Below are positions 15,301 through 36,579 of a stretch of 37,618 nucleotides of DNA, one piece after another. The position numbers and the translations under genes are program-made. Every line of letters starts with the position of its first letter. The first letter of the stretch is position 1. The notes beneath the pieces are model-generated. The model was not told where the DNA came from. It made no database searches and saw nothing but the letters and a program-made list of their open reading frames with translations. Source of the DNA: Clostridiales bacterium (GTDB lineage: Bacteria > Bacillota > Clostridia > Christensenellales > DTU072); assembly GCA_012800525.1 (NCBI GenBank), contig JAAZJD010000082.1, forward strand, positions 1-37,618, written 5' to 3'.

Positions 15301-18300
15301 CCAATACTTTCTGCTCCGGGGTTATTTCTATTTTGATTATAAAAGTTTATTGCTTTAACTTCTGTACCTTCTTGAAGAGTGTGGTGGAAATTATAACCTT
15401 GATATGTTATATCATAAATTACTTGTGGATTTGAAAGATTGACTTGGAGCATTGATATTTCAGGACTAGTAATCAGCCTATATGCTGAAGAGCCCTCTTT
15501 TACATAAATTTCAATGTTGTATTTTAGAGATGTAAATGAACTAATTAGTGGAATTTCATAATTATTTTGTAAGTTTACCCCATCATTTACACTTGTATAT
15601 GCATCGACCATTCTAGCTTTAATACCGCTCACTGTTGTCGAATAAACATATTGATTACTTGCAGACTTTGAAGAAGTTAAATTATTGATTCTATTTGCCG
15701 CATTGATGTAGAAAGATTCTAGGCGATACCCAAAGTCAGCTATAATTTCAACTTCAAACTCGGCATGATGTTCAATTGCATCAGAGGTGGTATATATTGT
15801 ATATCCACCATGTGAAGTGGGTTCTTGCTTTAATTGATATTTTCTTATCTTATATGTAACACTTATGTTTATATTACCAGTTGCATTTTGTATTCCAATA
15901 CGGTAATCATATAGACCATATCTAGCAATGCTTAAATCATCTGCACCGTTGATTACATAAGAGATAATTCCCCCGAAATCTTCCATAGTCACTTGAATTG
16001 TACTAATGTCATATCCAGTAGGAGCAGTGATATAAATCATTACGCTATCATCATCGCTTAGACCCATATATCCATATGCATCTATTGTTTGTACTTTTGC
16101 TAAATTAGTTCCAGAACCTTCAACTGGAATTAAAGAGTTTAAAATAGATGTTCCATAACTATACGATGGATACATAGAATTTGGTGCATACATTGAATTT
16201 GCACTATCATCATTAGTTACAATTTTGATTCCAGCACTATATGTTTCACCATTATGTAAATAACCTTTGTTATATTCTCTTTCAACCGTTATATCATATT
16301 TATTTCTAGCAATTTCTACTCTAAAACTAATTGGTGTTTTAATTCCAGATAAAGTATACGTAATATTTTGTTTACCATTGCTGTCTGTTTGGTGAATGTC
16401 ATAACTTCCAACAGATGATTGATAGGATAATTGCGAACCATAAGCATAAATAGTTGTTACTAAATCAAAATTCGTAGCAGAATTTGCATATTCTAATTTG
16501 GCTAAATATGAACCTTTATCAACTATAATATTTATTGTTACACTTCCATCCCAATAAACTTCTGTTTCACTTAAAGATATTGTGGAATTTGTTATGTTTG
16601 TTGCCATTTGAGTTCTAATGGCATATTTACTTTTTGTAAATGATGCAGCTAAAATAAAGCCTTGATGCGAATTGTCAGTAAAGGAATATTCATTTTCAGG
16701 ATTATCAAAACTAACAAAAGAATTTCCTTTTAGTATGCCTGTTATCTTATATCCTTCCTCTTCAAAGTATGGTCTAACTTTATATCTTAAACTTGTATTA
16801 TGGGTGGCTATTACATATGGATATCCATCAAACCCAATACCTACTGAACCTGTGCTAATATCTAACATTTCACTTGAAGTCACATGATATTTTGAAATAT
16901 CCCAAATTATACTTCCGGTAACTGCATCTTCTACAACAATTTCCCCATATTCTCCACGATATTTTATGTTACCTGATTCATCATATTGTAGCTCCCCTTG
17001 TTCATTGCGATCTTCAATTATGCTATAATCTAGTGACACTTTATAGGTTTTTATTTCAAACAAAGAATTTGCAACAACGTTTCCAATTACAACTGCTCTG
17101 AAAGTATTTGCCCTAACAGAATATTGCCTATCTATTCCATTTATTTCAAAAATAGTTCTTTCATAACCAATGCCAGGCTCTAAAGCAATTTCATAACTTA
17201 ATCCATACTCATACATACCTTCTGGTAACTCAACTGTTAGATTTCTATCATATGGATTATATGCAAAAACCTCGCTTCCGCTTCCTTCAAATGGATATTT
17301 TGCAGTATCTGCTATTGGATATAAAGCTCTTGTATATTCAACGCTATAGATCCTTCTAGTGTACTCAACGCGAACATATTCTATATTACACTCTAGGTTT
17401 CTAATTAAATATGAGTCACTTTCATCGTTTAAAATCTCATGTGTTAAATCTTGCTCTCCTAAGCTCGCATCTGCATACTTGATATATAGCTTAGAAATAT
17501 AGTAGCCACGTGCTATTCTTGGTCTAAGATTAACCCTAACATTTGAGCCATGGGTAAAGCCTGTATATATTTGGCTTGGATTAATTTGCCTTCCTGAAAT
17601 GGCAATAGTTCCAAAATCGCTTGGATTTATATCTATATATGAAAAGTTTGGTGATGTGTTTATAGATTCTAACTTAATCGTATATGTGTTAATTACAAAT
17701 TCAATTTCTATATCAATTATTGTTTGTCCACCTGTTATATGGTCTAAAACAGCAATATTTTGTGATTTATAGTGTGTGTATAATAAAGTTGGATGAGTGT
17801 TTTGCCATTGTTGAACACCATTTATTTTTAATGCTTTGACATTGTATCCATAATTAGATTTTGCATCTATCATTATAAAATCTGTAGAATATAGTATTAC
17901 TTGGTCTAGTGGTAAAAATGGTGATAAATTTCCGCCCCTATTAATTTGAGCTGTTACACTACCATCGACACTTGCATGTAGTCTTAAACGATACTCTTTT
18001 CTTTCAAATTTAACTTCAATGTCAATGTTGCCACTTACCTTAAACGAATATTTCCCATTTTGTAAAACCGTCTCACTGTCATACTCAAAACCATTTATAA
18101 TTATAACTTTGATAAGGCTCTCATCATCGGGGTCTAACCTTAAATCATATATTTCATCATAATTTGTAACAGTTCCAAGTCCATATGCAACTAAGTCTAA
18201 TCCTTTAAATAGCTGTATTTCTCCTTGTCCTTGGCCAGTAGAAGTAATATTTAAAACATATTTTTTAGGAGTATATTCTGCCTCAACTAAAAGGTTATAT

Positions 18301-21300
18301 TTCAAGTAGTCTCCATCGCTAGCATAAACTCCACTTCCAATTTGGAATTCAAAAATTCCAGTGTTTTTATATCCTGTATTATTGGCTATGGTGTCTGCGT
18401 TTATAAAATAGCTTTCCCCATTTTCAATAAATTGTGTTACTGTAATTCTAGAAATTTCATATCCTACACTTGGTGTTGCTTTAACAAACAATGTGTCATC
18501 TTCACCGTAAAACTCCACGTTACTAGATATGAGTCCTTTACTTCCACCCTCATCTTCTACAAAAGTTATTTGACTTTTTTGTTTTACAAATATGACCTCA
18601 ACATTTTGATCTTTTGCTGTTGTATATACAATTTCTCTTGCTAGGCCTGCATCTGCTTCATCATATGTATAGCTTGCTATAATAAGACCATTTACAATCA
18701 CGGCTTTGACAGCATAGTTTTCTGCTGGTGTAATAATATAATTTACTGCACCTGAATCTACTGTGCCACCACTTAATATTGCTTGAGGCTCTTCATCAGT
18801 TGTATATGCTGCAACTGTACCTTTAGTGGTTCCACCATCTAAATATGTATCACGATATGTTATTTTGTAAGGAGAAGTATCTCCAAGACTTAGTTTTTCA
18901 AAAGCTAAAATTATTTCAAGATCAGAGGCTATATTATTAATTTGCAAAGAATATCCAACGTCACTATCTTTAATTATTGTATATGATAGTCCTTCTGGCT
19001 CATCTTCACCGTGCACATAATATTGATACTCATTAGCTCCATTTGTAGAATTTATAACCCTTACAAAACTTAAATCTTCAGGTAATCCGTCTTGAACAGC
19101 AAGACCTGCAACTTTATAACCACTTCCTGGTTCTACGCTAAGAATCAAAGCATTTCCATAAGATACAGTTCCTAGAGCTGAAAACTCATAACTAGTAAAT
19201 ATAATATTGCCACCATCTATAACAACGCTTGGAGCATTAGTCTCCCCTGTAACAGCTTTTATTGTGTAATTTGCAGTTTTCTTTACAATGCCATCTACTG
19301 TGCTATCTGGGTCCTCACCCTCTCCATAAAAAATATACTCATAGCTACTAGAGATATCATCTATCTTTATTTCATATTCGCTTGTGTTATATGGAATAGG
19401 TAGAGATGTCCAAGTTGCCTCACCGCGCTTTCTATATCTAATTATTTCAATTTCATAATTAGTATCAGCTCTTAAAATAAAGGTCAAATTTGTACCTCTT
19501 TGAATTTTATCAAAAGTACGTCCTGAATCTAGATTATATGTTACATCCTTATGACTTACACTTAAAGAATCATTTGGAGCAAATGTAACGCCATATGTTC
19601 TTGGAGCAAATTCAAAGACAACATCATAGTCTTGTTTAATTGAATCAATGGTATAAGTGTAACTAGAATCACTTGTTGAAGGTATTAGGCTCATTGAATT
19701 TACAAGCAATTTATATACGTAATAGTTATCTGTTGTTAGTCCATTTATATACACTTTCTTTCCATAGTCAACTTGCATTGGATGAGATACTTCTCCTTGA
19801 CCGATATGACTAGAAAATATCTTATAATACATTTTTGCAAACTCTACATCAATAGAAAGATCTTCATTTAATGACCTCACCCTATATCTAATGTCAGTAA
19901 CTCTCGGATCTGCTAAAGAAATGTCTGCATCTACATAATTTACTTTTATTGCATTTCCTAAATACTTATTGGTTAAAACATCATGACTTGCATAAGGATT
20001 TAAAATATAGCCATTTATTCTCACACTCTTAATGTAATATCCTGTATTTGCCTTTACATCTATATATGTATCTTCAACACCTTTGTTAAATCTTGCTGAT
20101 AGACCTTTGTTTGCTATGCCTTCATAAATTGCAGCAACGCCATTTGTCATACCAGAAAGCGGAGTAATTATTTGAACAAGATGTTGAGCTCTTTCATAAA
20201 TAATTTCAACACTAATATCTGTAGCACCTATTTCTAGCTCAAGTTTAAAGGTTCTAGCATTTTCAGTTAGATTTGGGGCCGCTTCACCATTTATCAAAAT
20301 GTTAAATATACTATAATTTAGCGGTGCACTAATGGCCAAAATTTTAGTTGAATTTCTTTGAACTGGAATCATTGCTGTCGAGGCTGTAATTACAATTGAC
20401 TCTCCAACCTCATATCCACCTTCACCATAATCTATGTCATTTAAATACTCAACTGTTCCACTTACGACATTATCACCATTAATTAAATTAATTGCACTAT
20501 TAAACATCGTATATACAACAGCTACATTTTTGTTTTCTGTTGGATTTGAAAAGACTAAATCATATGTAGTAGCGCCTGGTGCAACAACAACATCGACACC
20601 ATTAACTTTTAAACTACTTATGTAATATCCCTCATCTGCAACTAAAGACACTGTGTGTTGAGAAACAACATCGCATAAAACCGTTGATAAAATTTCTGGT
20701 CCTAAATACCAATCACCATGAGCATCTTGAAGATTCATATGAGCTTTACCAGAACCTGTTGTGCTCACATTCAAATTAATTTTATTTACTTCAAATACTG
20801 GATATACGACTAAACCTTCTTCATCTAAAATTGTGTTTAATGTAACTGAGACAATTCCACCTGGTTTATTGGTAAACCAACCAACAAATGTATAATTTTC
20901 CCTAACAGCAGGGTTTGGGAAAACTCCGTTATTTTTAACATTCTTTAAGTTGTCTTGATATTTAACTCTTAAGACTCTTGCTTCTTGCTCAGCAACATAT
21001 CCTTTATTTATATCCATAAAGTCTAAGTCTTCATTTAAGCCCTTTTGGAAAACAACATCATATGTGCCAACTTCCCATATAGCATTTAGTCTAGTATCTT
21101 GATCAAATTGAATATATGCATAATTTTCTTGCGTTATAACATGGCTAACACCTTCATGTGTATATTCCCAACCTTTAAAGACATAGCCTTTAGTTGCAAG
21201 CACATTATCTTCATATACGAATTTATCGCCTAATCTCTCTCTTTGAATAACTCCTATAACTGAAGACAATTTATTATTAAGCGATACATTGAGATTTTTA

Positions 21301-22508
21301 TTATCACGAACAACAGGTTCCCCAAACGAGTAAAAACTCAAATTAGCTTGTTCATATATTAAATTGGCTCTAATGTAGATATCATCTGCCCCTATGGAAG
21401 GCGTAAATGTCAATTGAAATTCATCTGCTGTTATTCCAATTGGACTGTAAAAATCAATAAAACCTTGGCCACCTGCTGCCACTTCAATTCTTTTGCTTTC
21501 ATCACTTGTATCTACTGGAAGTTCATGCCAATTACCAAGATAATCTCTTATGCTCCAACCTGTAAACATCCTTCCGCCATTAGCTTTTAATCTCAATGTT
21601 GCGATTTCTTCTTTTTGGAAAAAAGGTACAGCTTTTGAATAAAAATTTTCTGGTTGCTCAACCATAGCAAAAGCTTCACCATCTCTTGAAGTTATTGATA
21701 AATGAATATTTGCCGCATGCTTTTCATACACTGGTATAAAAGTCATATCTTCTGTTACACGAGTTATGTCCTTATCCCAATGAGAAAATTTATATCCATA
21801 TAGCTTCATTTGATTTTCTTCAAGCCTTGGAGCATAATTTGCAGCACTTTTACCATACTCTACTTTTCGCTCTCTGCTTAACGTACCATCTGGATATTGG
21901 AAAACAACAGTTGACTCTCTTCTAGCAAAAGTTGCTATATAGTCAGTTGATGCTTTAATTGCAGTGTCTGTCCTTGTAGGGTTAGGATTCCCATCACTCC
22001 ATTGCACAAAGATAAAACCTTCATCTGGAACTGCTCTTACCGTAGAAGCATCTTTACCAGCATCAATTTCTTGAACTTTTAAACCTTCAATTCTACCGCC
22101 ACCACTTGGTGTCGTATATCTTACAGTCAGTTTTGTTGGAACAACATTAAATTTAACATATTGTTTAAATCCGCCATAAACAAGCTCAACATTTTCTAAA
22201 AGACCAGGTTTACTTGTATCTAATCCAGAAGCTGTTAACTCACTTAAAGCAACATCTTTTATGCTTCCATCGGAATATTTTACTCTAACAAAAACATTTT
22301 TAATATCAGCATCAACACTAATTTCGTTATTATCGCTTTTGGGCATTATAGCTACAACCGTAGGTGCTTTACTAGTGTCAACCTCAGCAAAACGAGGTAA
22401 AACTGCAAATGTAACACCGATAGAAAGTATGGCAATAAAAGCAATGATTAAGACACTCAATCCTACTCTTGCATTCTTTGAAAATTTCTTCATCTTTTCT
22501 TCTGCCAA
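9354..22508 (-). CDS. Giant (4384-residue) membrane-anchored surface protein with InlB-like repeats and GLUG-like C-terminal region
   Basis: One uninterrupted 13-kb reading frame. The start is a TTG at 22508 with AGAGG six bases before it; an ATG five codons on (22493) has a poorer site. Residues 15-36 form a membrane helix or uncleaved signal; there is no lipobox, sortase signal or S-layer domain, so the N-terminal helix is the only visible anchor. An Ig-like segment follows, then InlB/Flg_new-type units (GYKFSHWDKD; GYVFKGWE near 441; NYTFVGWF near 543; KFIFEGWYY near 3290) and a long run of divergent InlB-B units with the recurring pattern GYxIxxLxVNG (GYYISSLKVNG, GYYIKSVRING, GYNVKALKING and about ten looser ones). 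From about 3690 to 4250 it resembles GLUG-containing adhesins (LDGKNYTLYGLSLDRNDSAG, GGAVGLNKGLI). Adhesin or surface-layer function is inferred. Confidence 0.85.
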   Translation of the reverse strand: MAEEKMKKFSKNARVGLSVLIIAFIAILSIGVTFAVLPRFAEVDTSKAPTVVAIMPKSDNNEISVDADIKNVFVRVKYSDGSIKDVALSELTASGLDTSKPGLLENVELVYGGFKQYVKFNVVPTKLTVRYTTPSGGGRIEGLKVQEIDAGKDASTVRAVPDEGFIFVQWSDGNPNPTRTDTAIKASTDYIATFARRESTVVFQYPDGTLSRERKVEYGKSAANYAPRLEENQMKLYGYKFSHWDKDITRVTEDMTFIPVYEKHAANIHLSITSRDGEAFAMVEQPENFYSKAVPFFQKEEIATLRLKANGGRMFTGWSIRDYLGNWHELPVDTSDESKRIEVAAGGQGFIDFYSPIGITADEFQLTFTPSIGADDIYIRANLIYEQANLSFYSFGEPVVRDNKNLNVSLNNKLSSVIGVIQRERLGDKFVYEDNVLATKGYVFKGWEYTHEGVSHVITQENYAYIQFDQDTRLNAIWEVGTYDVVFQKGLNEDLDFMDINKGYVAEQEARVLRVKYQDNLKNVKNNGVFPNPAVRENYTFVGWFTNKPGGIVSVTLNTILDEEGLVVYPVFEVNKINLNVSTTGSGKAHMNLQDAHGDWYLGPEILSTVLCDVVSQHTVSLVADEGYYISSLKVNGVDVVVAPGATTYDLVFSNPTENKNVAVVYTMFNSAINLINGDNVVSGTVEYLNDIDYGEGGYEVGESIVITASTAMIPVQRNSTKILAISAPLNYSIFNILINGEAAPNLTENARTFKLELEIGATDISVEIIYERAQHLVQIITPLSGMTNGVAAIYEGIANKGLSARFNKGVEDTYIDVKANTGYYIKSVRINGYILNPYASHDVLTNKYLGNAIKVNYVDADISLADPRVTDIRYRVRSLNEDLSIDVEFAKMYYKIFSSHIGQGEVSHPMQVDYGKKVYINGLTTDNYYVYKLLVNSMSLIPSTSDSSYTYTIDSIKQDYDVVFEFAPRTYGVTFAPNDSLSVSHKDVTYNLDSGRTFDKIQRGTNLTFILRADTNYEIEIIRYRKRGEATWTSLPIPYNTSEYEIKIDDISSSYEYIFYGEGEDPDSTVDGIVKKTANYTIKAVTGETNAPSVVIDGGNIIFTSYEFSALGTVSYGNALILSVEPGSGYKVAGLAVQDGLPEDLSFVRVINSTNGANEYQYYVHGEDEPEGLSYTIIKDSDVGYSLQINNIASDLEIILAFEKLSLGDTSPYKITYRDTYLDGGTTKGTVAAYTTDEEPQAILSGGTVDSGAVNYIITPAENYAVKAVIVNGLIIASYTYDEADAGLAREIVYTTAKDQNVEVIFVKQKSQITFVEDEGGSKGLISSNVEFYGEDDTLFVKATPSVGYEISRITVTQFIENGESYFINADTIANNTGYKNTGIFEFQIGSGVYASDGDYLKYNLLVEAEYTPKKYVLNITSTGQGQGEIQLFKGLDLVAYGLGTVTNYDEIYDLRLDPDDESLIKVIIINGFEYDSETVLQNGKYSFKVSGNIDIEVKFERKEYRLRLHASVDGSVTAQINRGGNLSPFLPLDQVILYSTDFIMIDAKSNYGYNVKALKINGVQQWQNTHPTLLYTHYKSQNIAVLDHITGGQTIIDIEIEFVINTYTIKLESINTSPNFSYIDINPSDFGTIAISGRQINPSQIYTGFTHGSNVRVNLRPRIARGYYISKLYIKYADASLGEQDLTHEILNDESDSYLIRNLECNIEYVRVEYTRRIYSVEYTRALYPIADTAKYPFEGSGSEVFAYNPYDRNLTVELPEGMYEYGLSYEIALEPGIGYERTIFEINGIDRQYSVRANTFRAVVIGNVVANSLFEIKTYKVSLDYSIIEDRNEQGELQYDESGNIKYRGEYGEIVVEDAVTGSIIWDISKYHVTSSEMLDISTGSVGIGFDGYPYVIATHNTSLRYKVRPYFEEEGYKITGILKGNSFVSFDNPENEYSFTDNSHQGFILAASFTKSKYAIRTQMATNITNSTISLSETEVYWDGSVTINIIVDKGSYLAKLEYANSATNFDLVTTIYAYGSQLSYQSSVGSYDIHQTDSNGKQNITYTLSGIKTPISFRVEIARNKYDITVEREYNKGYLHNGETYSAGIKIVTNDDSANSMYAPNSMYPSYSYGTSILNSLIPVEGSGTNLAKVQTIDAYGYMGLSDDDSVMIYITAPTGYDISTIQVTMEDFGGIISYVINGADDLSIARYGLYDYRIGIQNATGNINISVTYKIRKYQLKQEPTSHGGYTIYTTSDAIEHHAEFEVEIIADFGYRLESFYINAANRINNLTSSKSASNQYVYSTTVSGIKARMVDAYTSVNDGVNLQNNYEIPLISSFTSLKYNIEIYVKEGSSAYRLITSPEISMLQVNLSNPQVIYDITYQGYNFHHTLQEGTEVKAINFYNQNRNNPGAESIGNYYRLRRNVPAEALTIDSFTSINPSFGTLKIVGDELLKILDFHDSERNKIFLYYDVAIKNFEIKTYFRYIASSGSDAFGYTSSGSDVTSIPNASVVINSTDNKQVSPITGEGSGSIHDYGTSISYIASIPDINVRKVQFVGFQEEIDGVWQYIPRSSGMISGTGNNQTLTISVKANRNIRAVFYQVFVVNVVIMPKYQTTGVPSESNFTRYETSLKAYVRYDKTEAENRTLPYVENPTSSSNDYLEEELKPINTGAYKVNYEFLVKSGSLLRMSSTASLAIEYYISKPGGPNVAYSEVKADEFKFASTGYTVNKNLIVNAITNKAGYALITRQTLGAEANAGANIQYKIDSGSALNLTSSYVKVDNNRTLEIIITVNPNYRFDLLAYKSTTSSSDGRLIFGEPISMKSGDDEGRTTVRYEDSNGETLQVPENVAEKQRVKKIIIRTTNFAIQKSMTFKFVKQIRVYKHALLLRNGINEPSAVEDGTVKEIDGQVNRIVAGEFTSVASQYFDYNQELSYQLEESYQTTVSDYYKRPVQFVGFSINGVNFERDLGSEYPNPADVTTIVLNDLDTTLENGVRFVYETDHYDANLKTYVVRVVARFVPLLNVLIENDYESSPGEYVDTGSIAVGGIRYSENSMSLSENIDIVNSQYVDPNTSEIVYTNRLLKVPVKVNSSLNSSENGYDIWKNNVINLNWLSENDRRSIAFVQWEYFAYSPNSVEQGEWIPIPYTQEIGGRIATSKDTNYSFPLSALLPQYTSGASHYRTYYYYTKSDGEVQTPDGFSGGSFADFMGMDHIATYDANGMIIPGQYLASMPVLRIRPKYERRVYLDIASYLSSEVEGQYDIVNPSSFGNLVNPSIGDTGLVSQSLPLNTVVILKPNTIEDKFIFEGWYYRPRKVSPHGELVLFDNEITSVPIYGTEETKDITYKYIATVADRDAAIASGLLPQSASFVDFNIFYKNTLVLKLDWPEGDYLIGTKYKSLYEINITVKNESGSSNYILNKSRLEVDYYGMSSPTAENKWALGNLVDSGANPADNIDGRVDEYSITLKVPAGKLALFKLNTQYNGEGAGRWNDYVFNPHYDEYTGIYVYANGDLSTNVWYSGVSSDYSFSENHISPNTANARNVGAIKSANFAILGNADKIVEIRMKSYGCLNIHNVFEGAAIRLPDVLAQELSIPNGLVEDNGPLDEDDTVGVIKLIDIPIKPEFNIDGQTRTDYGIKISEFLTGQKVLASENYQHDVTLDANDPTLRKEQHVVIFGTKAVNTWNKDLGESGGLESVTFGKNLEKPFESGKGSQELPFIIKSAYQFKQIESLYIGNEDTLHYGSGGRFHFELGADINLSDLENPVSEPLCASGILGFNGVLDGKNYTLYGLSLDRNDSAGLFKILTDGAEIKNVKIAADMIASYMGFAGFFAPLAESQSMGIVVENISVSSDVSHELGTYVGNFVGSLIGKVTTSTHAMASFTLKNITLNGAQVNSNFVVPSNEAADYETALFGSTSPVTLRGYNARGAAGGVIGFASGRIIVENITLDDMSVRSLNGKFAGGFIGIADTASSIVSNYTNVKVIDPNIEVGENFAGGIFGVLGSYQNLLSSTVEITQNTPHVTGAIAYFAEAPDDASYKATGIGGAVGLNKGLISNFHYLGSGIYTLTSGIVGGIAGINEHMISATEENYNLIEGSAVKLRSDLSTQMDGGVRKGGGIFGGVTGWNMRNGNVIDITIAGNEYNGYSNYGTRFGQNSAFYEVAYNSAYTSQTQNYAIHKDLQTRVPNAETTTAFISGMVGYNSAVNQGQVINLTFATKLVVYRENDASTIAKTFVNAISNFKAAVSSSAANAKVEYMKLTISDNTSPISHDGTPVALTRVRSIDDIGRLNPASNVVYIRYLTLGSYYIKGLGHILQKDRKYSRDYSFSEITLITPTSTTTDIVCNQVINPENHDDYTIMYNGVNLAEGKIEEAGGTATLWNAYNYIGHIRQPKVYRSTS

Positions 22509-22729: not shown

Positions 22730-22945
22730 AAAATGCTCAACTAAAATCTTAGTCATATACAACAATTAGAAGTGCTTCAACTAAAACTTTACTCACTTGT
22801 AGCAATTACAAAAATTAAAACTTATTAAAACTCAACTTTTACAAACTGTATAAGGTCTATCGACTGCAATTTTAAACTATAATTTACAACTAAAAATAAA
22901 AACTGCTAAATTAAAACTCAACTTTTACAAGCTTTGGAAGTATAT
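22730..22945. repeat. Degenerate copies of the 3' end of the MTA/SAH nucleosidase gene
   Basis: The gene ends, on the plus strand, with TTAAAACTCAACTTTTACAA (22911-22930). The same 20 bases occur unchanged at 22825-22844, 86 bases away, carrying the stop codon and the codons for VKVEF in frame, after which the match fades (AAGTATATCTACGA against AAGGTCTATCGACT). Two looser blocks of about 40 bases lie at 22735-22773 (CTCAACTAAAATCTTAG) and 22774-22816 (TTCAACTAAAACTTTAC). Confidence 0.8.
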
Positions 22946-23603
22946 CTACGATTAGAAAAGCCATATCTTTTGCACTTTGTTCAAGATTGAAAAAATATTC
23001 ATTGTTAGCATCTTCACCTGCTAAATCAGAAATCAATCTTATCGCAACACTTGGGATTTCAAAAAATGCAGCCACTTGAGCTATTGCACAACTTTCCATA
23101 TCACAAGCAATAGCTTTAAAATTATTTTTTATTTCATTTGCTTTTTCTTTTGAACATATAAATTGATCACCAGAAGCTAAAGTGCCTAGCTTTGCATCTT
23201 TTACTTCATCTTTTAATAAATTGACTAACTTTTCATTGCTTTTAACTTCAACAATGTTTAAATTTGGAATCAACCCTAAAGGATCACCAAAAGCTGTTGT
23301 ATCAATATCATGTTGAACTAATGTTTGGGCTATCACTATCTCCTTTGGTTTTACATGCTGAAGTCCCCCTGCAACGCCAGTACTAATTACCATATCAACA
23401 TCAAACTTAGACATTAGTAAGGTTGCACTTATACTTGCATTCACTTTCCCCACACCGCTCAAAACAATTATGACTTCATAATCTTTGCTAGTAGAAATGT
23501 AAAAAGTTTTTCCAGCATAATCTACAGTTTTATTGATATTTAATTTCTCAATAAAACCTCTTACCTCAGCAGGCACTGCAACTATGATACCAATTTTTTT
23601 CAT
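22911..23603 (-). CDS. mtnN: 5'-methylthioadenosine/S-adenosylhomocysteine nucleosidase
   Basis: This cytoplasmic enzyme hydrolyses methylthioadenosine and S-adenosylhomocysteine to adenine and the thioribose or ribosyl-homocysteine. It has the family's usual length (230 residues). The expected catalytic residues are present: E13 in the VPAEV segment (the general-base region), E170 in CDMESCAIA and D193 in RLISDLAG; SGVGKVNA (49-56) and STGVAGG (74-80) match the fold's substrate loops. The ribosome site before the ATG at 23603 is weak. Methylthioadenosine is a by-product of polyamine synthesis, but the pot genes are 15 kb away and no link is implied. The gene's last 20 bases are repeated downstream. 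Confidence 0.95.
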   Translation of the reverse strand: MKKIGIIVAVPAEVRGFIEKLNINKTVDYAGKTFYISTSKDYEVIIVLSGVGKVNASISATLLMSKFDVDMVISTGVAGGLQHVKPKEIVIAQTLVQHDIDTTAFGDPLGLIPNLNIVEVKSNEKLVNLLKDEVKDAKLGTLASGDQFICSKEKANEIKNNFKAIACDMESCAIAQVAAFFEIPSVAIRLISDLAGEDANNEYFFNLEQSAKDMAFLIVDILPKLVKVEF

Positions 23604-23829: not shown

Positions 23830-24045
23830 TTAGTCTAAAGATTTTACATAATCATAACTAGCTACATTCTCACCACATCAAGGATACTTTGACAATTCAC
23901 TTCATCTAATCTAAAGATTTTACATAATTATAACTAGCTACACGCTCACCAATCAATGATACTTTGGAAATGCACATCATTCTAATCTAAAGATTTTACA
24001 TAATCATAACTAGCTATCTTCTCGCCAATCAATGATGCATATAAC
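23830..24045. repeat. Three tandem copies of the 3' end of the first beta-helix-protein gene
   Basis: The gene's own end starts at 23981 (CTAATCTAAAGATTTTACAT). The same sequence recurs from 23905 and, as GTCTAAAGATTTTACATAAT, from about 23833; the period is about 73-76 bases. Both extra copies keep a stop at the same place. Read as protein, the gene ends SLIGEKIASYDYVKSLD, the nearer copy SLIGERVASYNYVKSLD, and the farther copy GENVASYDYVKSLD before losing frame. The unit also includes about 25 bases of 3' flank (GATACTTTGGAAATGCAC; GGATACTTTGACAATTCAC). Confidence 0.92.
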
Positions 24046-26711
24046 TCTTCCGATTCTGGCACAGGTTCAAACGGTCCAATATCTGGTGATTCTTTGTTAA
24101 AGTTATATCCCACCATGCGATTATTAGGAAGTTTTTCAACATTAGTTCCACCTATTACTCCAAGACCTAATTTAATTAATGCAAGGGTTGTCTTATCTGC
24201 ACCCTCAACATCAAAAGGAAGATCCTGACTTAAAAATTCATCATTTAAGTGCAAATTAGAATAATCGTTTTCTGAAACGCCACCTAAAACAAATAACGCC
24301 ATCGAGGCATATTCTTTTTTGCCATAGCGTTTGAATAATTGCCTCCATTCAGGAGCATCTAAAATTGCTCTCCAAAATGGTGCTACAAATTTCATCAAGC
24401 CTTCAATTGCACTGCTTTGTCTAGGATCTGATGTCCCTAAAACCATTTTAAATACTGAATGAACTACACCTTCTAAACTATCTTTGTCTTGCCAGTTATA
24501 AAAGCGATTATCACCTTCAAAATATACATGCTGCAATGAATTTTTCCCAACAGCTTGAGCTAGATTATCAACTCCATCAAAACCAATTGCTATACTTGGA
24601 GCTAAAGAATTTTTAAATACACAATTTTTAACTACAAAACTATTATCTTCTAAATGTGCCCCTGCAAGATTTCTAATGAATACACCAGTATACAAATTGT
24701 CCCCGACTATTGAGCCTTCCAAGAAAATATTGCCTGGTCTTCTAATTTCCATTCCAAAAGTACAGTTTTTAATTTGAACATATCTAAAAACTTGATCTAT
24801 TTTCATATCATAAGAATTGATACCAACACACATATTAAATAAATCACCTTCAGTTCTATATTGCTTTGTTGTTTCAATAACAATATCATCAAAGATTATT
24901 TGATCAGTTTTATCAACACTACCATCATCTAAAATTCCTCTACCATATTCACTTGAAAGCTCAATCATCGGATAGGCAAAAAGCTTTTCAGTTCCAGTCT
25001 CACCACTTAGAGAAAAACCGTTACCCCAAAAGTTTGAATAGACTTTTAGTGATGTCATTTCATCACTTGAAATCTTCTTAAGTTCAACCTCAATATCTGA
25101 TTGAAAAACAACGTTTTTAACTTTATCTGAAAAGGCTTTTTTAAGGTGTGCAAGATTATAAACATTTATAGCCTCTACATCATCAAAGACTTTAAATGTA
25201 TAGCTTCTTTTCATAGTATTTAATGGATATCCATCAACTGCCATATATGCAGTTAAGGTAACATTATCTCCACAACCAGAATCCAAAAATTTAATTTTTT
25301 GAGCATTGATGACTTCTACCTCGTCATCTTTTTCAATTTCAATAACCCCTTCTTTAGACAATGTCCAGATAATATCAAAACTACTATCATCATCAATTAT
25401 TCCAATATCCATAGTGTCTATTTTTTCTACATTTGAAAGTCTAGATTCCATTTCTACTTCTATCCCATTTTCATATCTTTCTCCACCTAGATAAAAGTTT
25501 TTTGCCCACACTCTATCTTGTCTAATTCCCCTATATTGATCTATAAATCCAAGGCTCATTTCAAAGTTATTTCTAAGCTCTCTAACAATAATTTTCTTGC
25601 TGATTGTTTTATTTTTATATGTAGCACTTACCGTAACCTCACCTGCTTTTTTAGGATAGAGATGCCCAGTTTTTTCATTAATTTCTAAAACTCTAAAATC
25701 GCTTGTTTGAAATTTTATATCTTTGTTATCATCTATTTTTTTAAATGGTTCAAGTTCGCCTAAAATAAGTCTATACATGCCATTATTTGTATATACCCTA
25801 CTAAGTCCATCAAGAAAACCAACCTCATTTTCATCTACAGAAAGAACCTTTACTTCTATTGATTTTTCTCCATGTCTTACAACATATCTATCTTCATTTT
25901 TTTCAATACTAACTACATCTTGTATATCTTCAAAAACCAAATTTTCTCGAACCCAATTTTCATTAATTTCACTAGATGTATATGCAATATCTCTTTTTAC
26001 AATAGCATCACGAAAATCTAACAATGCCCTTGATTGGCAATATCTACCGTCTTTTCCATATGCTCCTACACTAATTTCCACAAGTTCTCTTTCTAAAACA
26101 GTTAATTGCCCGTTATCATCAATATCTACAACTCCTATAGGACTTGTTCCCCATTCTAATGTATCTTTTTCAAATGCAATTATTGGATATATTTCGTTGA
26201 GTAATTTTGTACCGCCATATAGTTTCGTAGATTCAAATGAACCTAAGCTTAAGTTATTTCTTTTTGCATCTAGTACATTTATAGATGTTATACGTTTTGA
26301 AATAATTTCAAAATTCAATTGCCTTTTGATATTTATATTTGCTTTTGATGAGATTACAACTTGCACATAGCCTACTTTTTTAGGAATTAAACTATATCTG
26401 TTCTCGGTATTTTCTATTTTCTCAATTAAAATCTCGCCGACTTTTGAGCTAGCTATAGTTTCAACAATTAAGCCTTTTTCTCTTGTAATTTCTGGGAATA
26501 TATTAATTATTAAAAAATTATTTTCATCATCAATAGAAACTTCTATGACTTCATTGTCTCTAATAATCTTATTAAATCTACTTCTCACTTCAATTTCAGT
26601 AGGATTATCTGGTGTTCTCACAGCAATCACTACTGAAGCCGTGTTTAAAGCAAGTATCAGTATGATTGGAATAATCAATATTAAGATTATTAAAGTTTTC
26701 TTTATATTCAT
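23982..26711 (-). CDS. Membrane-anchored Ig-like/beta-helix protein, paralogue A
   Basis: I do not recognise a named family. The 909-residue protein starts with a hydrophobic helix (about residues 6-30), no lipobox and a weak signal-peptidase site, then TPDNPTEIEV, a stretch shared by all three paralogues. Residues ~35-380 look like serial Ig-like domains; one ends GHLYPKKAGEVTVSATYKN, a Big_2-type strand pair. About 530-720 resembles a right-handed beta-helix (FRYVQIKNCTFGMEIRRPGN, then SFVVKNCVFKNS). The shared RGIRQDRVW lies near 400, and a conserved C-terminal block contains FYNWQDKDSLEG, FWRAIL and KKEYASM. It is the most diverged of the three. No clear ribosome site precedes the ATG. 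An extracytoplasmic structural or binding role is inferred. Confidence 0.75.
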   Translation of the reverse strand: MNIKKTLIILILIIPIILILALNTASVVIAVRTPDNPTEIEVRSRFNKIIRDNEVIEVSIDDENNFLIINIFPEITREKGLIVETIASSKVGEILIEKIENTENRYSLIPKKVGYVQVVISSKANINIKRQLNFEIISKRITSINVLDAKRNNLSLGSFESTKLYGGTKLLNEIYPIIAFEKDTLEWGTSPIGVVDIDDNGQLTVLERELVEISVGAYGKDGRYCQSRALLDFRDAIVKRDIAYTSSEINENWVRENLVFEDIQDVVSIEKNEDRYVVRHGEKSIEVKVLSVDENEVGFLDGLSRVYTNNGMYRLILGELEPFKKIDDNKDIKFQTSDFRVLEINEKTGHLYPKKAGEVTVSATYKNKTISKKIIVRELRNNFEMSLGFIDQYRGIRQDRVWAKNFYLGGERYENGIEVEMESRLSNVEKIDTMDIGIIDDDSSFDIIWTLSKEGVIEIEKDDEVEVINAQKIKFLDSGCGDNVTLTAYMAVDGYPLNTMKRSYTFKVFDDVEAINVYNLAHLKKAFSDKVKNVVFQSDIEVELKKISSDEMTSLKVYSNFWGNGFSLSGETGTEKLFAYPMIELSSEYGRGILDDGSVDKTDQIIFDDIVIETTKQYRTEGDLFNMCVGINSYDMKIDQVFRYVQIKNCTFGMEIRRPGNIFLEGSIVGDNLYTGVFIRNLAGAHLEDNSFVVKNCVFKNSLAPSIAIGFDGVDNLAQAVGKNSLQHVYFEGDNRFYNWQDKDSLEGVVHSVFKMVLGTSDPRQSSAIEGLMKFVAPFWRAILDAPEWRQLFKRYGKKEYASMALFVLGGVSENDYSNLHLNDEFLSQDLPFDVEGADKTTLALIKLGLGVIGGTNVEKLPNNRMVGYNFNKESPDIGPFEPVPESEELYASLIGEKIASYDYVKSLD

Positions 26712-28084: not shown

Positions 28085-28262
28085 TTCTCAATAAAACCAA
28101 ATAAGTGCTGTTTTAAGGATACGGAATAGCGGTTTCACCTGTTCTGGCTCAACAAAACCAATAAATACTATTTTAAGAAGAATACGGAATAGCGGTCCAC
28201 CTGTTACTAGCTCAATAAGATCGCTGTTTTAAGAATACGGAATAGCGGTTCCACCTGTTAAG
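28085..28262. repeat. Three tandem copies of the 3' end of the second beta-helix-protein gene
   Basis: The gene end (stop at 28229) reads TTAAGAATACGGAATAGCGG on the plus strand. Copies start at 28173 (TTAAGAAGAATACGGAATAG) and 28113 (TTAAGGATACGGAATAGCGG), giving periods of 56 and 60 bases. Each unit also carries about 20 bases of flank starting CTCAATAA or CTCAACAA. The farther copy keeps the reading frame back from its stop (TGETAIPYP against TGGTAIPYS in the gene); the nearer has a one-codon insertion and a one-base deletion. Together with a small AT-rich stretch they fill most of the 304-base spacer. Confidence 0.92.
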
Positions 28263-30913
28263 GAATTATACATTTCATATGAAGCGGGAACTGGCTCTAA
28301 GGGTAGGACATCTGGTTTTCCTTTAGAAAAATCATAGCCTACTAAATGGCTTTCATAAAGATTTTCAACTGCGCTTCCAGATGCTATACTTGCAAAAAGT
28401 TTAAAAATATCTAAAAAACTACTGGTGCTTTCACTTTTTATAGGCAACTCTTTCGTTACATATTTATCGCCAAGTTGAATTTTGCTAATATCATTTTTCG
28501 CAGTTAATCCGTATGTAAAAACACCAACAGAAGCATATTGTTTACCTTTGTGCCACATAAACAAATTCTCTACTCTCTTATCTTGCATAACCTTTTCCCA
28601 AAATGGAGATAAAATATTTCTCAGGCCATCAAAAGTACTATCATCAGGAAAATAGCTAGCAAGTATCACATCAAATAGTCTTTGAAATTGTTGTTTATCT
28701 TGCCAATTATAAATTCTTACATCACCCTCAAATTTGAGAAGGGGTAGTATGTTTTTTCCTTGGTGTTCACCAGCAGTTTCCAAATCATTAAATAAAAACA
28801 TAATACTTGGTCCACCAGAATTGGTAAACACAGAATTTTTAATAATTAATTTATCATTATCTATATTTTCATGCCAGTCGTTATAGTATATAATGCCAAG
28901 AAAGCCACAATCACCAATTATCGAACCTTCTATTTTTACATTAGCACTTTGTCTTATTTCCATACCAATTTCACAGTTTTTTAATTGAAGATATCTAAAT
29001 CTTACAGGAGTTTTGTGTATTTCCTTTGCACTAATTCCTGTACTTGCAAGTTTGGCAGTTTCTTTATCTAAAAGAGTTGGTACGGTCATAATGATAAGGT
29101 CATCAACTATAATTTCATCATCAGGCTTAGTGTTAATTAAATCTCCTCTTTCCGCATCATAACGAACTAATCCCCATTTTGCCCAATTTGTAGTCTCTAA
29201 ATTTTGAGAAAGAGTAAAGCCATTACCCCAAATATTTCCATATGTATGGAAAAAAGTAGCATCATTTGTAGCGCCATCAAGCACTATATCTGATTGATAA
29301 ACCATATCCAAAACTTTTTCTATATAAAGCTTACGACAACCTATAGCATTTGTTACATTTACCGCATTTGGTCTGTTCAATATTTTAAATGTAAAGCTTC
29401 TCTTGAAGTGCTCTATTTTATTTTTGCCATCCGACATATATGCTGTTAGCGTTACACTCTGTCCTAAACCTGTGTCTAAAAATTTAATTTTAATATCATT
29501 TTTGTCACCGATAGGATATACCCTTTCAACTTCAATTACACCTTCTTTATCATATTCCCATATAATGTCAAAATCTGCATTATCATCTTTTACAAAAAAG
29601 TCATATGTATCAACAAAATACATGCTATCAAGTCTTTCGTCCCATGAAAGAGTTAAGTCCTCGCCACCTTCAATAAACCTTGTGCCCCAAACTCTATCTT
29701 GCCTTATGCCTCTAGCTTGATCAATATAATCATGTTTTAAGGAAAAATATTCTTTAACTTCTCTAACTTCAATATCTTTCGTGTACTCTTTATCAAAAAT
29801 AAATGCAGAAACTGTACAAGTCCCATTTTTTATAGGTTGTATGCAGCCATTATTCTCATTAACTTTCAATATATCAGTATTGCTAGAAACAAACCTTACT
29901 TCACCATAATAATCAGAATAAATATCAGTTAAATCAATAACTTCTCCATTTTCTGCTTTTGATAAAACTAGTCTTGGAATAGATGTATTTGTGTATACTT
30001 TTTCTATTCCATCTGAAAAATATATGTCACTAGTAATATTGTCTACTACCGTAACAATAACTTTTCTATCATTTGCTTCAACACTAAATTTCCCACCCCC
30101 TAATTTAGTAATTGTTGCACTATCTCTATACTCTTCAAAAACAATATTATTTCTAATCCAGTTTACATCTACACTTTCAGTAGTATGCACCAAAGTTCTA
30201 TCAACAATAGCTTTTGAAAAATCTATATACGTTGTTGCTTGAAGTGGAACACCATCTTTTCCATAAGCTGTAAATGACACTTTAGTCTTCACTCTATCTT
30301 TGATTATGATATGACCGTTTAAAACTTCAGCAGCTCCAAAAGGATCAAAACTCCATTTGGGTGTAATATAATCTAGTGCATCAAATGGCTTAGCGTAATA
30401 ATCCAAATAATATGTTTCACCAAACTCATAAACTGCTGCACTTTGAATATTTGAGGCACCAAGTTGTCTCCTTTCGGAATCCAAAATATTTACTTCAGTA
30501 ATTGCATTAGACCTTACCATAAAAGAGACTTTATGTCTTAAAGATACATTTGCTTCTGCTGAAAGAATTAACTCTACATATCCTGCTTGCTTTGGTATTA
30601 TTTGATACCTATTGGTATTGCCAATTCTTTTTAACTCAAGTTCACCTGTAGAATTTGAGGTAACTTCTGGTTTATTTATATTTTTGTTTTTTGTGATTTC
30701 AGGGAATATATTTATTATGATAAAATCATCATCTCTTATTAAATCTAATTCCAAAACTTCGCCATCTTTAACAATGACATTATTTTTATCTCTAATCTCA
30801 ATTTTAGTTGGATTGTCGGGGGTATTAATAGCAACAATTGTATTAGCTCCATTTAAGGCTAATATTAAAATCACTGGGATTAACAATATAACTGCTATTA
30901 GAAACTTTTTCAT
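28229..30913 (-). CDS. Membrane-anchored Ig-like/beta-helix protein, paralogue B
   Basis: An 894-residue protein of unknown function, closely similar along its whole length to paralogue C, more distantly to A. The ATG at 30913 is chosen because its product begins MKKFLI like paralogue C; an ATG at 30949 would add 12 unrelated residues. A membrane helix at about 4-27 is followed by NTPDNPTKIEI. Ig-like segments follow (one with LKVNENNGCIQPIKNGTCTV), then DQARGIRQDRVWGTRFIEGG, a strand-rich part, and beta-helix-like strands (FRYLQLKNCEIGMEIRQSAN, KLIIKNSVFTNSGGPSI). The conserved C-terminal block contains YNWQDKQQF, FWEKVM and KGKQYASVGVFTYGL. No ribosome site is visible; a TTGACA at 30944-30949 could drive a leaderless or very short-leader message. 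Confidence 0.75.
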   Translation of the reverse strand: MKKFLIAVILLIPVILILALNGANTIVAINTPDNPTKIEIRDKNNVIVKDGEVLELDLIRDDDFIIINIFPEITKNKNINKPEVTSNSTGELELKRIGNTNRYQIIPKQAGYVELILSAEANVSLRHKVSFMVRSNAITEVNILDSERRQLGASNIQSAAVYEFGETYYLDYYAKPFDALDYITPKWSFDPFGAAEVLNGHIIIKDRVKTKVSFTAYGKDGVPLQATTYIDFSKAIVDRTLVHTTESVDVNWIRNNIVFEEYRDSATITKLGGGKFSVEANDRKVIVTVVDNITSDIYFSDGIEKVYTNTSIPRLVLSKAENGEVIDLTDIYSDYYGEVRFVSSNTDILKVNENNGCIQPIKNGTCTVSAFIFDKEYTKDIEVREVKEYFSLKHDYIDQARGIRQDRVWGTRFIEGGEDLTLSWDERLDSMYFVDTYDFFVKDDNADFDIIWEYDKEGVIEVERVYPIGDKNDIKIKFLDTGLGQSVTLTAYMSDGKNKIEHFKRSFTFKILNRPNAVNVTNAIGCRKLYIEKVLDMVYQSDIVLDGATNDATFFHTYGNIWGNGFTLSQNLETTNWAKWGLVRYDAERGDLINTKPDDEIIVDDLIIMTVPTLLDKETAKLASTGISAKEIHKTPVRFRYLQLKNCEIGMEIRQSANVKIEGSIIGDCGFLGIIYYNDWHENIDNDKLIIKNSVFTNSGGPSIMFLFNDLETAGEHQGKNILPLLKFEGDVRIYNWQDKQQFQRLFDVILASYFPDDSTFDGLRNILSPFWEKVMQDKRVENLFMWHKGKQYASVGVFTYGLTAKNDISKIQLGDKYVTKELPIKSESTSSFLDIFKLFASIASGSAVENLYESHLVGYDFSKGKPDVLPLEPVPASYEMYNSLTGGTAIPYS

Positions 30914-30984
30914 ATCAATATTTTGCCCATAACATTTGAATACTGTCAAATATATTAGGCCATCTAATATTTTATATTATACTA

Positions 30985-31285
30985 CCAATTCAAATTAAAG
31001 GCTAAATAAAAAGTTAAATAATTCTTGAAAGATAAGGTGTAGCTGCCCCAACTCTTAGTTAATCTACATCTCACATAATACTCCAATCTAAATTAAAGGC
31101 TAAATAAAAGTTAAATAATTCTTGAAGGGTAAGAGGCAACTGCTCCACCTCGTAGTGAATCATACATCTCATATGATGCTCCAATCTAAACTTTAAAAGC
31201 TAAACAAAAAGTTAAATAGTTCTTGAAGGATAAGGTGCGACTGCCCCACCTCTTAGTGAATCATACATCTCATACGACGCAGGGA
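30985..31285. repeat. Three tandem copies of the 3' end of the third beta-helix-protein gene, period 97-101 bp
   Basis: Stops of the three units lie at 31212 (the gene), 31111 and 31014. Each unit has about 70 coding bases plus about 30 bases of flank, AATTAAAGGCTAAATAAAA in the two distal units and CTTTAAAAGCTAAACAAAAA next to the gene. The nearer copy reads ASYEMYDSLRGGAVASYPS then RII, against ASYEMYDSLRGGAVAPYPS then RTI in the gene: 23 aligned sense and stop codons hold nine differences, seven of them synonymous. The farther copy is more decayed and has an internal stop. Confidence 0.95.
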
Positions 31286-33905
31286 CCGGATCTAAAGGAA
31301 GGACATCTGGCTTTCCTTTAGAAAAATCGTAACCCACCAAGAAAGAATCATAAAAATCTTCAATGTTTATTTCCAACACAACACTCACAACAAGTTTAAA
31401 TAATGATATAGTACCTTTTGTATCTTCGTTATAAATTGGTATTTCTTTTGCTGCATATCTATCGCCTATCTGAAGTTTGCTCATATCATTTTTAGCTGTT
31501 AATCCATATGTAAACATTCCAACTGAAGCATACTCTTTTCCTTTATGCCACATGAACAAATCATTCATTCGTTTATCTTTCATAACGCTATTCCAAAACG
31601 GACCAATCAAACTTTTTATTCCTTCAAACTCTGCATCAGCTGGGAAAAAACCAGACAATATTGCATCAAACATTCCATCTAATTGATTTCTATTTTGCCA
31701 GTTATAAAACCTTACATTTCCTTCAAACTTTACATTTGGCAAAATATTTTTTCCCTGATGCTTTGCGCTTTCATACATTTCACGAAATAATAACGTTATA
31801 CTTGGACCTAAAGAATTTGTAAATACTGAATTTTTTAAAATGAATATATCATCATCGATATTTTCATGCCAGTCATTATTTCTACTTATTCCTACAAGTC
31901 TATTGTCGCCTATTATGCAACCATCTACTATCGAATGAGCAACCGACTTTATTTCAATACCAAAATTACAATTTTTGATTTGTAGATATCTAAATACAAC
32001 TGGAGTTTTAGGTATGTAACCTATCCTAAGACCTACCCCTGCAAGTTTTGCTATATTTTTATCTTCAAGTGTCGGAACAGACATAATAGTAAAATCATCA
32101 AATATAATTTCATCATTTGGCACTGTTTCAATCAAACTAGCCCTTGATTCATCAAAATCAATTAAATAATCCCATTTATCAGGAGGATTCGCTTCTAAAT
32201 TTTGAGTAACAGAAAAACCGTTGCCCCAAATGTTAGAATAAACTAACAAAGATCTGTGATACGTATCATTACTATGCACTATGTCAGACTGAAAAACCAT
32301 ATCAACAGCTTTTAATTCATATGCTTTATAGCACTGCAAACTATTTGTAACATTCACTGCATTTAGCCTATTTATTACCTTAAATGTGAAACTTTTCTTA
32401 AAGTGTTCTATTTTATTCTTCCCATCAGACATATATGCTGTCAATGTAACACTTTGCCCTAAAGCAGCATCTAAAAATCTAATTTCAATATCATTTTTTT
32501 CACCAACTGGATATAATCTTTCAACTTCAATTAAGCCTTCCTTATCAAGTTCCCATATAATATCAAACTCTGCATTATCGTCTTTTACAAAAAAGTCATA
32601 CACATTAACAACTTCCATTTGGGCAAGTCTTTCTTGCCATGGTAGAGTTTCATCTTCACCACCTCTAATAAACCTGGTCCCCCAAACCCTATCTTGCCTT
32701 ATGCCTCTAGCTTGATCGATATACTCATGTTTTAGTGAAAAGAGTTCTTTAACTTCTCTAACCTCAATAGTTTTAGTATATTCCTTATCAAACACAAAAG
32801 CAGAAACTGTGCATGTTCCATATTTTTGTGGTTGTATGCAACCGTTATTTTCATTTACTTTTAAAATATCAGTGTCACTTGAAACAAACCTTACTTTTCC
32901 ATAATAATCAGAGTAAATATCAGTTAAATCAATAACTTCTCCATTTTCCGCTTTTGATAAAACTAGTCTTGGAATAGATGTATTTGTGTATACTTTTTCT
33001 ATTCCATCTGAAAAATATATGTCACTAGTAATATTATCAACTACATTGATAACTACCTTTCTATCATTTGCCTCAACACTATATTTCCCCCCTTCTAACT
33101 TGTTAATCATTGCATCATCTCTATACTCAGGAAATACAATATTATTTCTAATCCACTCTTCATCTACACTTTCAGTAGTATGCACCAGGGTTCTATTAAC
33201 AATAGCTTTTGAAAAATCTATATATGTTGTTGCTTGAAGCGGAACGCCATCCTTTCCATAAGCTGTAAATGACACTTTAGCTTTTACTCTATCTTTGATT
33301 ATGACATGACCATTTAAAACTTCAGCAGATCCAAAGGGATCAAAACTCCATTTTGGACTAGTGTAGTCTAGGGCATCAAAGGGCTTTGCATAATAATCTA
33401 AATAATATGTTTCACCAAATTCATAAACAACTTCACTTTGGACATTTGATACCCCAAGTTGTCTTCTTTCGGCATCTAAAACGTTTACTTCAGTAATTGC
33501 ATTTGATCTTACCATAAAGGTCACTTTACGCTTTAGGGAAACATTCGCTTCTGCTGAAAGTATCAACTCAACATATCCTGCCTTTTTTGGTATAGCTTGA
33601 TACCTATTGGTGTTATCAATTCTTTTTAGTTCAACTTCACCAATAGAATTTGCTGTAACTTCAGGTTTGTTTATATTTTTATTTTTTGTAATTTCAGGGA
33701 AAATGTTTATTATTATAAAATCATTACGGATTAAATCTAACTCTAAAACCTCACCATCTTTAACTATCACATTATGGCTATTTCTAATTTCAATTTCAGT
33801 CGGGTTATCGGGGGTATTAATAGAAACGATAGTGCTAGCTCCATTTAAAGCTAGGATTAAAATAATAGGTATTAAACATATCACTACTATTAAAAACTTT
33901 TTCAT
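31212..33905 (-). CDS. Membrane-anchored Ig-like/beta-helix protein, paralogue C
   Basis: An 897-residue protein of the same unrecognised family; large stretches are near-identical to paralogue B (for example GKDGVPLQATTYIDFSKAIV), showing a recent duplication. The membrane helix is at about 4-27, then NTPDNPTEIEI, Ig-like segments, DQARGIRQDRVWGTRFIRGG, beta-helix-like strands (FRYLQIKNCNFGIEIKSVAH, FILKNSVFTNSLGPSI), and the C-terminal block with YNWQNRNQLDG and KGKEYASVGMFTYGL. A minus-strand TATAAT at 33935-33940, 29 bases before the ATG, may be its -10 box; the -35 is poor (TAGACA at 19 bases). GGGG lies 14 bases before the ATG, too far to be a strong ribosome site. The ABC permease ends 72 bases upstream. 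Confidence 0.75.
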   Translation of the reverse strand: MKKFLIVVICLIPIILILALNGASTIVSINTPDNPTEIEIRNSHNVIVKDGEVLELDLIRNDFIIINIFPEITKNKNINKPEVTANSIGEVELKRIDNTNRYQAIPKKAGYVELILSAEANVSLKRKVTFMVRSNAITEVNVLDAERRQLGVSNVQSEVVYEFGETYYLDYYAKPFDALDYTSPKWSFDPFGSAEVLNGHVIIKDRVKAKVSFTAYGKDGVPLQATTYIDFSKAIVNRTLVHTTESVDEEWIRNNIVFPEYRDDAMINKLEGGKYSVEANDRKVVINVVDNITSDIYFSDGIEKVYTNTSIPRLVLSKAENGEVIDLTDIYSDYYGKVRFVSSDTDILKVNENNGCIQPQKYGTCTVSAFVFDKEYTKTIEVREVKELFSLKHEYIDQARGIRQDRVWGTRFIRGGEDETLPWQERLAQMEVVNVYDFFVKDDNAEFDIIWELDKEGLIEVERLYPVGEKNDIEIRFLDAALGQSVTLTAYMSDGKNKIEHFKKSFTFKVINRLNAVNVTNSLQCYKAYELKAVDMVFQSDIVHSNDTYHRSLLVYSNIWGNGFSVTQNLEANPPDKWDYLIDFDESRASLIETVPNDEIIFDDFTIMSVPTLEDKNIAKLAGVGLRIGYIPKTPVVFRYLQIKNCNFGIEIKSVAHSIVDGCIIGDNRLVGISRNNDWHENIDDDIFILKNSVFTNSLGPSITLLFREMYESAKHQGKNILPNVKFEGNVRFYNWQNRNQLDGMFDAILSGFFPADAEFEGIKSLIGPFWNSVMKDKRMNDLFMWHKGKEYASVGMFTYGLTAKNDMSKLQIGDRYAAKEIPIYNEDTKGTISLFKLVVSVVLEINIEDFYDSFLVGYDFSKGKPDVLPLDPVPASYEMYDSLRGGAVAPYPSRTI

Positions 33906-35587: not shown

Positions 35588-35835
35588 TAATTTTTATCTA
35601 TCCCTAAGACCTCATCTCCAAATATTTATTCATAGGTCCAATTTTTGTATATATAATCTTTTCCACAAAACTAAATTTTTATCTCTTACCTAATCTTATA
35701 ATTAAATCTATCGTTTTATATGTAGGACCATTTCCTATCTTCAAACTTATCTTTTACCTAATCTTTGGATTAAGCCATCATTTTATATATGTGACTATTT
35801 TATCTATCTTCAAACTTATCTTTTACTAATTTTTC
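35588..35835. repeat. Four tandem versions of the 3' end of the ABC ATPase gene, period about 65-75 bp
   Basis: The gene end and the nearest copy share CTATCTTCAAACTTATCTTT plus three more bases unchanged (gene copy from about 35804, repeat from about 35735). Farther copies near 35668 (CTAAATTTTTATCTCTTACC) and 35586 (ACTAATTTTTATCTATCCCT) are more diverged. Each is followed by a related flank (TTTTATATATGTGACTATTT, TTTTATATGTAGGACCATTT, TTATTCATAGGTCCAATTTT). The nearest copy lacks the gene's stop at the aligned position. The array fills the spacer before the permease gene. Confidence 0.85.
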
Positions 35836-36579
35836 TAAAGCCAAATCTTCTTCTGACTTTGAGTCATTTGATGATGTTATTTTTACAAATTGCTCTTCTA
35901 GCGTCTTTTTATTTTCCGGTATTTTTAAATCAATAACACATTGTAGCTTGCCATCTTTTATAATTGCAGCCCTATCACAAACCTTTGCAACTAAATCTAG
36001 ATTATGGCTTGAGAAGAAAACAGTATTACCTTCTTCACAGTGTTCATTCATTCTCTTTAAAATCTCTATCATAGATTGATGGTCAAGTCCCATCATAGGT
36101 TCGTCTAATACCCAGAGCTTAGGATTGTGAATTAATGCAGCAATAACACAAATTTTTTGTTTCATACCATGAGAATATGATTTTATTTGCATATCCACAG
36201 CATGTGTTAATTTAAATTGTTCAACATATTTATCAAAACGCTCAGCTCTATTTCTTTTGTTAACTTTATAAATATCAGCTGTATAGTTGACAAACTCCCT
36301 ACCCGTCAACTTTTCATAAACAGCATGGTTATCTGGCACATAGCCCATATTCATTTTTGCTAAAATTGGATCTTTTGAAATATCATATCCACAAATTCTA
36401 ATTGTTCCACTCGTAAAAGGATATATTCCTGTCAAACATTTAATCGTTGTAGATTTTCCTGCACCGTTTTGTCCTAAAAAGCCAAAGATTTCTCCCTTCT
36501 CTAAAGTCAGGGACAAATCTTCAACGGAAAATCTTTCACTATTTCTATATTTTTTATATAAATGCTCTATTTCTAGCAT
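35800..36579 (-). CDS. ABC exporter ATPase
   Basis: A 259-residue ATPase of the type that pairs with ABC-2-like permeases. Walker A GQNGAGKST is at 36-44, the signature is YSHGM (135-139) where LSGGQ is usual, Walker B is LWVLDEP (155-161) and the H-loop is in FFSSHNLDLV. The C-terminal ~35 residues are highly charged. A strong GGAGGAG ribosome site lies 5 bases before the ATG, and a near-consensus promoter lies upstream, so this starts the exporter operon. Cargo is unknown; the neighbouring surface proteins are candidates for linked function only by position. Confidence 0.92.
   Translation of the reverse strand: MLEIEHLYKKYRNSERFSVEDLSLTLEKGEIFGFLGQNGAGKSTTIKCLTGIYPFTSGTIRICGYDISKDPILAKMNMGYVPDNHAVYEKLTGREFVNYTADIYKVNKRNRAERFDKYVEQFKLTHAVDMQIKSYSHGMKQKICVIAALIHNPKLWVLDEPMMGLDHQSMIEILKRMNEHCEEGNTVFFSSHNLDLVAKVCDRAAIIKDGKLQCVIDLKIPENKKTLEEQFVKITSSNDSKSEEDLALEKLVKDKFEDR

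Follow-up and report, generated by a model that had tools for sequence, protein, structure and literature searches.

The window analysed here, a stretch of 37,618 nucleotides with a G+C content of 31.6%, is one contig (C39) of a genome of 1.78 Mb in 109 contigs. It carries the gene for a surface-type protein, here called paralogue C, which begins with a hydrophobic segment at its N-terminus and resembles Beta_helix only weakly, below the threshold. Two paralogues are located near gene C: paralogue B, arranged in tandem with C and 74% identical to it, and paralogue A, which is 39% identical. The end of gene C carries the motif P-x-DP(V/I)P...ELY..L.G, which is also found in same-family genomes. 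The homologues of C in these genomes terminate in P-G-D-P-V/I-P...ELY..L.G, and the conserved part corresponds to the upstream half of the tail described below. A single open reading frame of 4384 amino acids, apparently encoding a giant surface protein, lies near the paralogue cluster (9354-22508, minus strand).

Gene C is followed by partial copies of its own end. Tandem Repeats Finder reported these as one array at 30974-31274 (period 101, 3.0 copies, score 410), and the repeat is not due to chance. The repeated unit contains the stop codon of the open reading frame, and the first unit is the true gene end. The two further units, tail copies 1 and 2, share their starting junction (GATTGGAG...), and the periodicity of about 101 bp runs through the spacer; the spacer adjoining copy 1 carries additional substitutions and indels. 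Copy 1 is out of frame with the stop codon of gene C (101 = 2 mod 3) and a second stop codon follows 4 codons beyond the gene's own, so that read-through from gene C into copy 1 was rejected. Tail copies were also found at other genes of the window: they are present at 5 of its 16 gene ends, whereas the remainder of the genome has them at about 3% of ends (P = 0.0002). The four arrays at genes other than C are unrelated in sequence and differ in their periods. Table 1 gives the positions of all these features.

Table 1 Gene C and tail arrays in the window (positions refer to the window)
Feature	Position	Strand	Description
Paralogue C gene	31212-33905	−	897-aa surface-type protein; tail copies derive from its final 69 bases (31212-31280)
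End of gene C	31280-31212	−	True stop codon at 31212-31214
Whole array behind C	30974-31274	−	Period ~101, 3 copies; unit comprises gene tail, stop codon and ~32 bp of 3′ spacer
Tail copy 1	31111-31179	−	Last 23 codons including stop; no frameshift, no internal stop; finishes in TAA at 31111
Tail copy 2	31014-31081	−	Decayed: 1-bp deletion and TCA to TAA stop; finishes in TAA at 31014
Array following paralogue B (gene at 28229-30949)	28087-28271	−	Period ~63/53; analogous, unrelated
Array following paralogue A (gene at 23982-26711)	23834-24036	−	Period 76
Tail array behind ABC-transporter ATPase gene (35800-36579)	35679-35830	−	Period 68-69
Weaker tail copy behind 5′-methylthioadenosine/adenosylhomocysteine nucleosidase gene (22911-23603)	22825-22949	−	Period 86; start inferred from the period

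Copy 1 and the end of gene C differ in 9 of 23 codons. Seven of these differences are synonymous (gene C to copy 1: GCG to GCA, TCG to TCA, AGA to CGA, GGG to GGA, GTC to GTT, GCA to GCC, TAT to TAC) and two are non-synonymous (CCT to TCT, P to S; ACT to ATT, T to I). The coordinates and counts given in the initial annotation, made from the same DNA, are exact, and its description of the farther copy as freely decaying was equally borne out, as copy 2 has lost one base, which shifts its frame, and has acquired a stop codon. The nine differing sites are spread over all 69 bases, and gene C and copy 1 have diverged at 13% of sites.

To polarise the changes at this locus, copy 2 was brought in as a third sequence. 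This results in synonymous to non-synonymous ratios of 3:1 for the gene branch, 4:1 for copy 1 and 0:8 for copy 2. Private to copy 1 are CGA, GGA, GCC, TCT and TAC. Paralogue B agrees with the polarisation at several sites (TCA, the first base of AGA, TAT) and shows one homoplasy (GGA). It had been suggested, as one possibility, that the gene itself did most of the diverging. This is half right: about half of the differences between gene C and copy 1 (4/9) fall on the gene branch, and three of these four are synonymous, in keeping with a C-terminus conserved among the homologues. On the branch of copy 2, seven of the eight changes affect second positions of the former frame and none a third position, which is probably due to chance.

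Mutating the actual codons gave a neutral synonymous share of 21-30%, depending on the mutation model. Under purely neutral drift, at least seven synonymous changes out of nine are expected with P = 0.0007-0.004. With a constrained gene branch this value rises to P = 0.024-0.042, the synonymous share of 0.63-0.75 on that branch being an assumption; it is reasonable at C because homologues in the protein family conserve the upstream half of the tail. When copies 1 and 2 are pooled, the ratio of 4:9 fits neutral drift (P = 0.44). Copy 1 alone remains slightly odd (P = 0.017 under neutrality; Fisher P = 0.007 against copy 2), and its 4:1 is too small a sample.

Tail copies elsewhere in the same genome were used as a control. 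The survey covered 1.306 Mb (contigs L033-L052, L073-L112 and L132-L191), including about 60 kb of short contigs apparently reading as N. Genes were called mechanically by codon bias, the final 75 bases of every gene were compared with the 400 bases behind them, and a local score of at least 20 was counted as a tail copy. Such copies follow 31 of 825 gene ends, many of them ends of unrelated genes, and none was obtained with shuffled pairings. Copies of the gene head were found at 13 of 761 starts, compared to 1 in shuffles; among 702 segments from the middle of genes, 7 were duplicated in the same way. With a uniform gene caller, 30 of 804 ends and 11 of 755 starts have copies (P = 0.006). 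The units are mostly about 54-180 bp long, present in 2-3 copies and strongly diverged. One of the 31 cases is a whole-gene duplicate: at L140:7411-8082 two adjacent genes of 102 amino acids show about 92% DNA identity, a whole-gene tandem duplication with a period of 339.

Without C and this duplicate, the tails show 31 synonymous and 114 non-synonymous differences, a synonymous share of 21% compared to a neutral expectation of about 23% (0.228) for the same codons. With C included, divergence is evenly distributed over codon positions 1, 2 and 3 (65/508, 60/519 and 69/519, corresponding to 12.8, 11.6 and 13.3%; P = 0.72 by chi-square test). Frame-breaking indels are present in 19 of 30 tails. 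As a class, the extra units evolve like non-coding DNA and are not maintained. The initial annotation had named neutral ratios in the copies as the outcome that would speak against its reading, and such ratios are what we found across the loci of this one genome. A search of other genome contigs for a comparison between strains gave no match, and when viral contigs were probed with 16 bases of the tail, the 13 matches were judged to be chance.

Locus C has to be seen against this background, as it is the most extreme case and was picked afterwards from many. Among 29 tails its pair ranks as the most extreme, with a family-wise P = 0.014 if no gene end is constrained; if changes on the gene branches are 40-63% synonymous, the family-wise probability of a tail like that of C is 6-32%. 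Averaged over the tails of the genome, the gene branches show little constraint. The argument from constraint therefore leans on the conserved motif of gene C itself. Constraint on the gene end, together with luck in a small sample, best accounts for the mostly silent differences at C. They do not point to a spare end that is kept or expressed, since the pooled tail copies drift like non-coding DNA.

According to this, the tail copies very probably represent neutral tandem duplications spanning the stop codon, the silent excess at C being the sum of constrained changes on the gene branch and a few, mostly silent changes in the copy. We infer that replication slippage or illegitimate recombination made short tandem duplications across the stop codon of paralogue C. 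The complete gene would stay upstream, untranslated partial copies of its end would come to lie downstream, and these would then evolve neutrally. On the gene branch the conserved C-terminus would filter out amino-acid changes, and the branch of copy 1 would hold a handful of changes that are mostly silent by chance. That ends are duplicated more often than starts is what one would expect if a duplication spanning the stop codon leaves the gene intact and is harmless. Microhomology at the junctions was measured by how far the matched length exceeds the period; the values varied widely to both sides of zero.

Among the other explanations, an exchange of tails deserves consideration first. Long direct repeats at such spacing are generally known to recombine. 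Recombination between the direct repeats of about 100 bp would delete one unit, the copy would become the real gene end and come under selection, and re-duplication would restore the array. Copy 1 would indeed provide an intact end (ASYEMYDSLRGGAVASYPSRII*), and its four synonymous changes to one non-synonymous change would suit such a history. Nevertheless, we consider it unlikely: with 13% divergence between gene C and copy 1, exchange cannot be frequent, copy 2 decays freely, and the other tails of the genome are without trace of selection. It is just as doubtful that copy 1 is an occasional spare end that was under selection for some of its past, and that tail duplication throughout the genome lets the lineage remodel its C-termini. 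The earlier proposal that the copy at times serves as the expressed end is not supported, given the same divergence, the shifted reading frame (101 = 2 mod 3) and the neutrality of the tails genome-wide.

Gene conversion between the end of C and copy 1, which had also been put forward as keeping both in register, is very unlikely. Conversion would erase synonymous differences too, but the nine differing sites run along the whole 69 bases, the spacer has its own substitutions and indels, and no homogenised tract is seen in the one genome examined. The coding bases of copy 1 are free of indels and contain fewer non-synonymous changes than copy 2, which speaks in favour of conversion. The proposal is nevertheless not supported, given the 13% divergence, the neutral tails elsewhere in the genome and a divergence that is the same at codon positions 1, 2 and 3.

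Paralogues B and C are arranged in tandem and are 74% identical, and gene turnover therefore occurs at this locus. Copy 1 might thus be the surviving end of a full-length tandem paralogue C′, which would have gathered synonymous changes as long as it was coding and whose body was then deleted. The junction shared by both copies and the periodicity of about 101 bp fit tandem duplication of one unit and not two separate deletions, and many other genes of the genome carry such tails, which makes this origin highly improbable. Least probable of all, with hardly any likelihood, is that the array serves as a functional 3′ element (a terminator or an RNA structure) kept for its RNA, because despite its position directly 3′ of gene C and the presence of such arrays at many genes, there is no terminator-like site, folding is no better than that of shuffles (z = 0.36), and the units differ in sequence between genes and decay with indels.

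In antigenic variation by silent cassettes (pilS/pilE, vlsS/vlsE type), an expressed surface-protein gene is adjoined by partial copies of itself that are not translated. Likewise, untranslated partial copies are located beside the surface-protein gene C. Unlike the cassettes, however, these copies comprise the last ~23 codons only and decay by frameshift and stop codon, and the tails show neither homogenised tracts nor selection as a class. Furthermore, tails occur equally behind housekeeping-type genes (ABC ATPase, MTA/SAH nucleosidase). Silent cassettes require donor copies in register; here copy 2 is frameshifted and contains a stop, and 19 of 30 tails are broken in frame.

A literature search for a named phenomenon of tail duplication retrieved only variable-number tandem repeats (VNTRs) overlapping the ends of open reading frames. 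In Yersinia pestis, 16 of 88 VNTRs overlap open reading frames, 10 of them at the stop codon and 6 at the start codon. The authors remarked that a gene might be less disturbed by variation that spans its stop codon (PMC3689786). Minisatellites and short variable segments made by slippage are described in other bacteria (PMC2884548). Like the stop-overlapping repeats of Y. pestis (PMC3689786), the arrays described here consist of head-to-tail units that include the end of the open reading frame and its stop codon, the gene remains intact since the first unit holds the true end, and 3′ ends are favoured over 5′ ends. In contrast to these VNTRs, the units in this genome are longer, strongly diverged and seemingly commoner per gene. 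The stop-spanning minisatellite is a known kind of repeat, and it is unusually common in this genome.

Tail copies follow 30 of 804 gene ends in this genome (about 3.7%, or roughly 1 gene in 27) compared to 0 of 219 sampled from same-family genomes (261 kb; P = 0.001). Arrays touching non-coding DNA amount to 0.25 per non-coding kb in this genome and to 0.06 in the same-family genomes; about 72 arrays with a period of at least 30 lie in 286 kb of non-coding DNA, and two in the 31.8 kb of the same-family sample. A lineage-specific rise in short tandem duplication is possible. The relatives are more compact and their sample is small, and the density of tail copies is therefore a lead and not a result. 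Loss of a FEN-type 5′ nuclease or of MutS was considered as a cause; like its relatives, this genome encodes a Pol I 5′-nuclease domain and two proteins of the MutS type, so losing these two repair functions does not explain the density.

A striking synonymous excess in one short pair of repeats thus vanishes once the changes are polarised and tails from the whole genome serve as a control. The density of the arrays points to an unusually high rate, or a poor removal, of tandem duplications of about 50-180 bp in this lineage.
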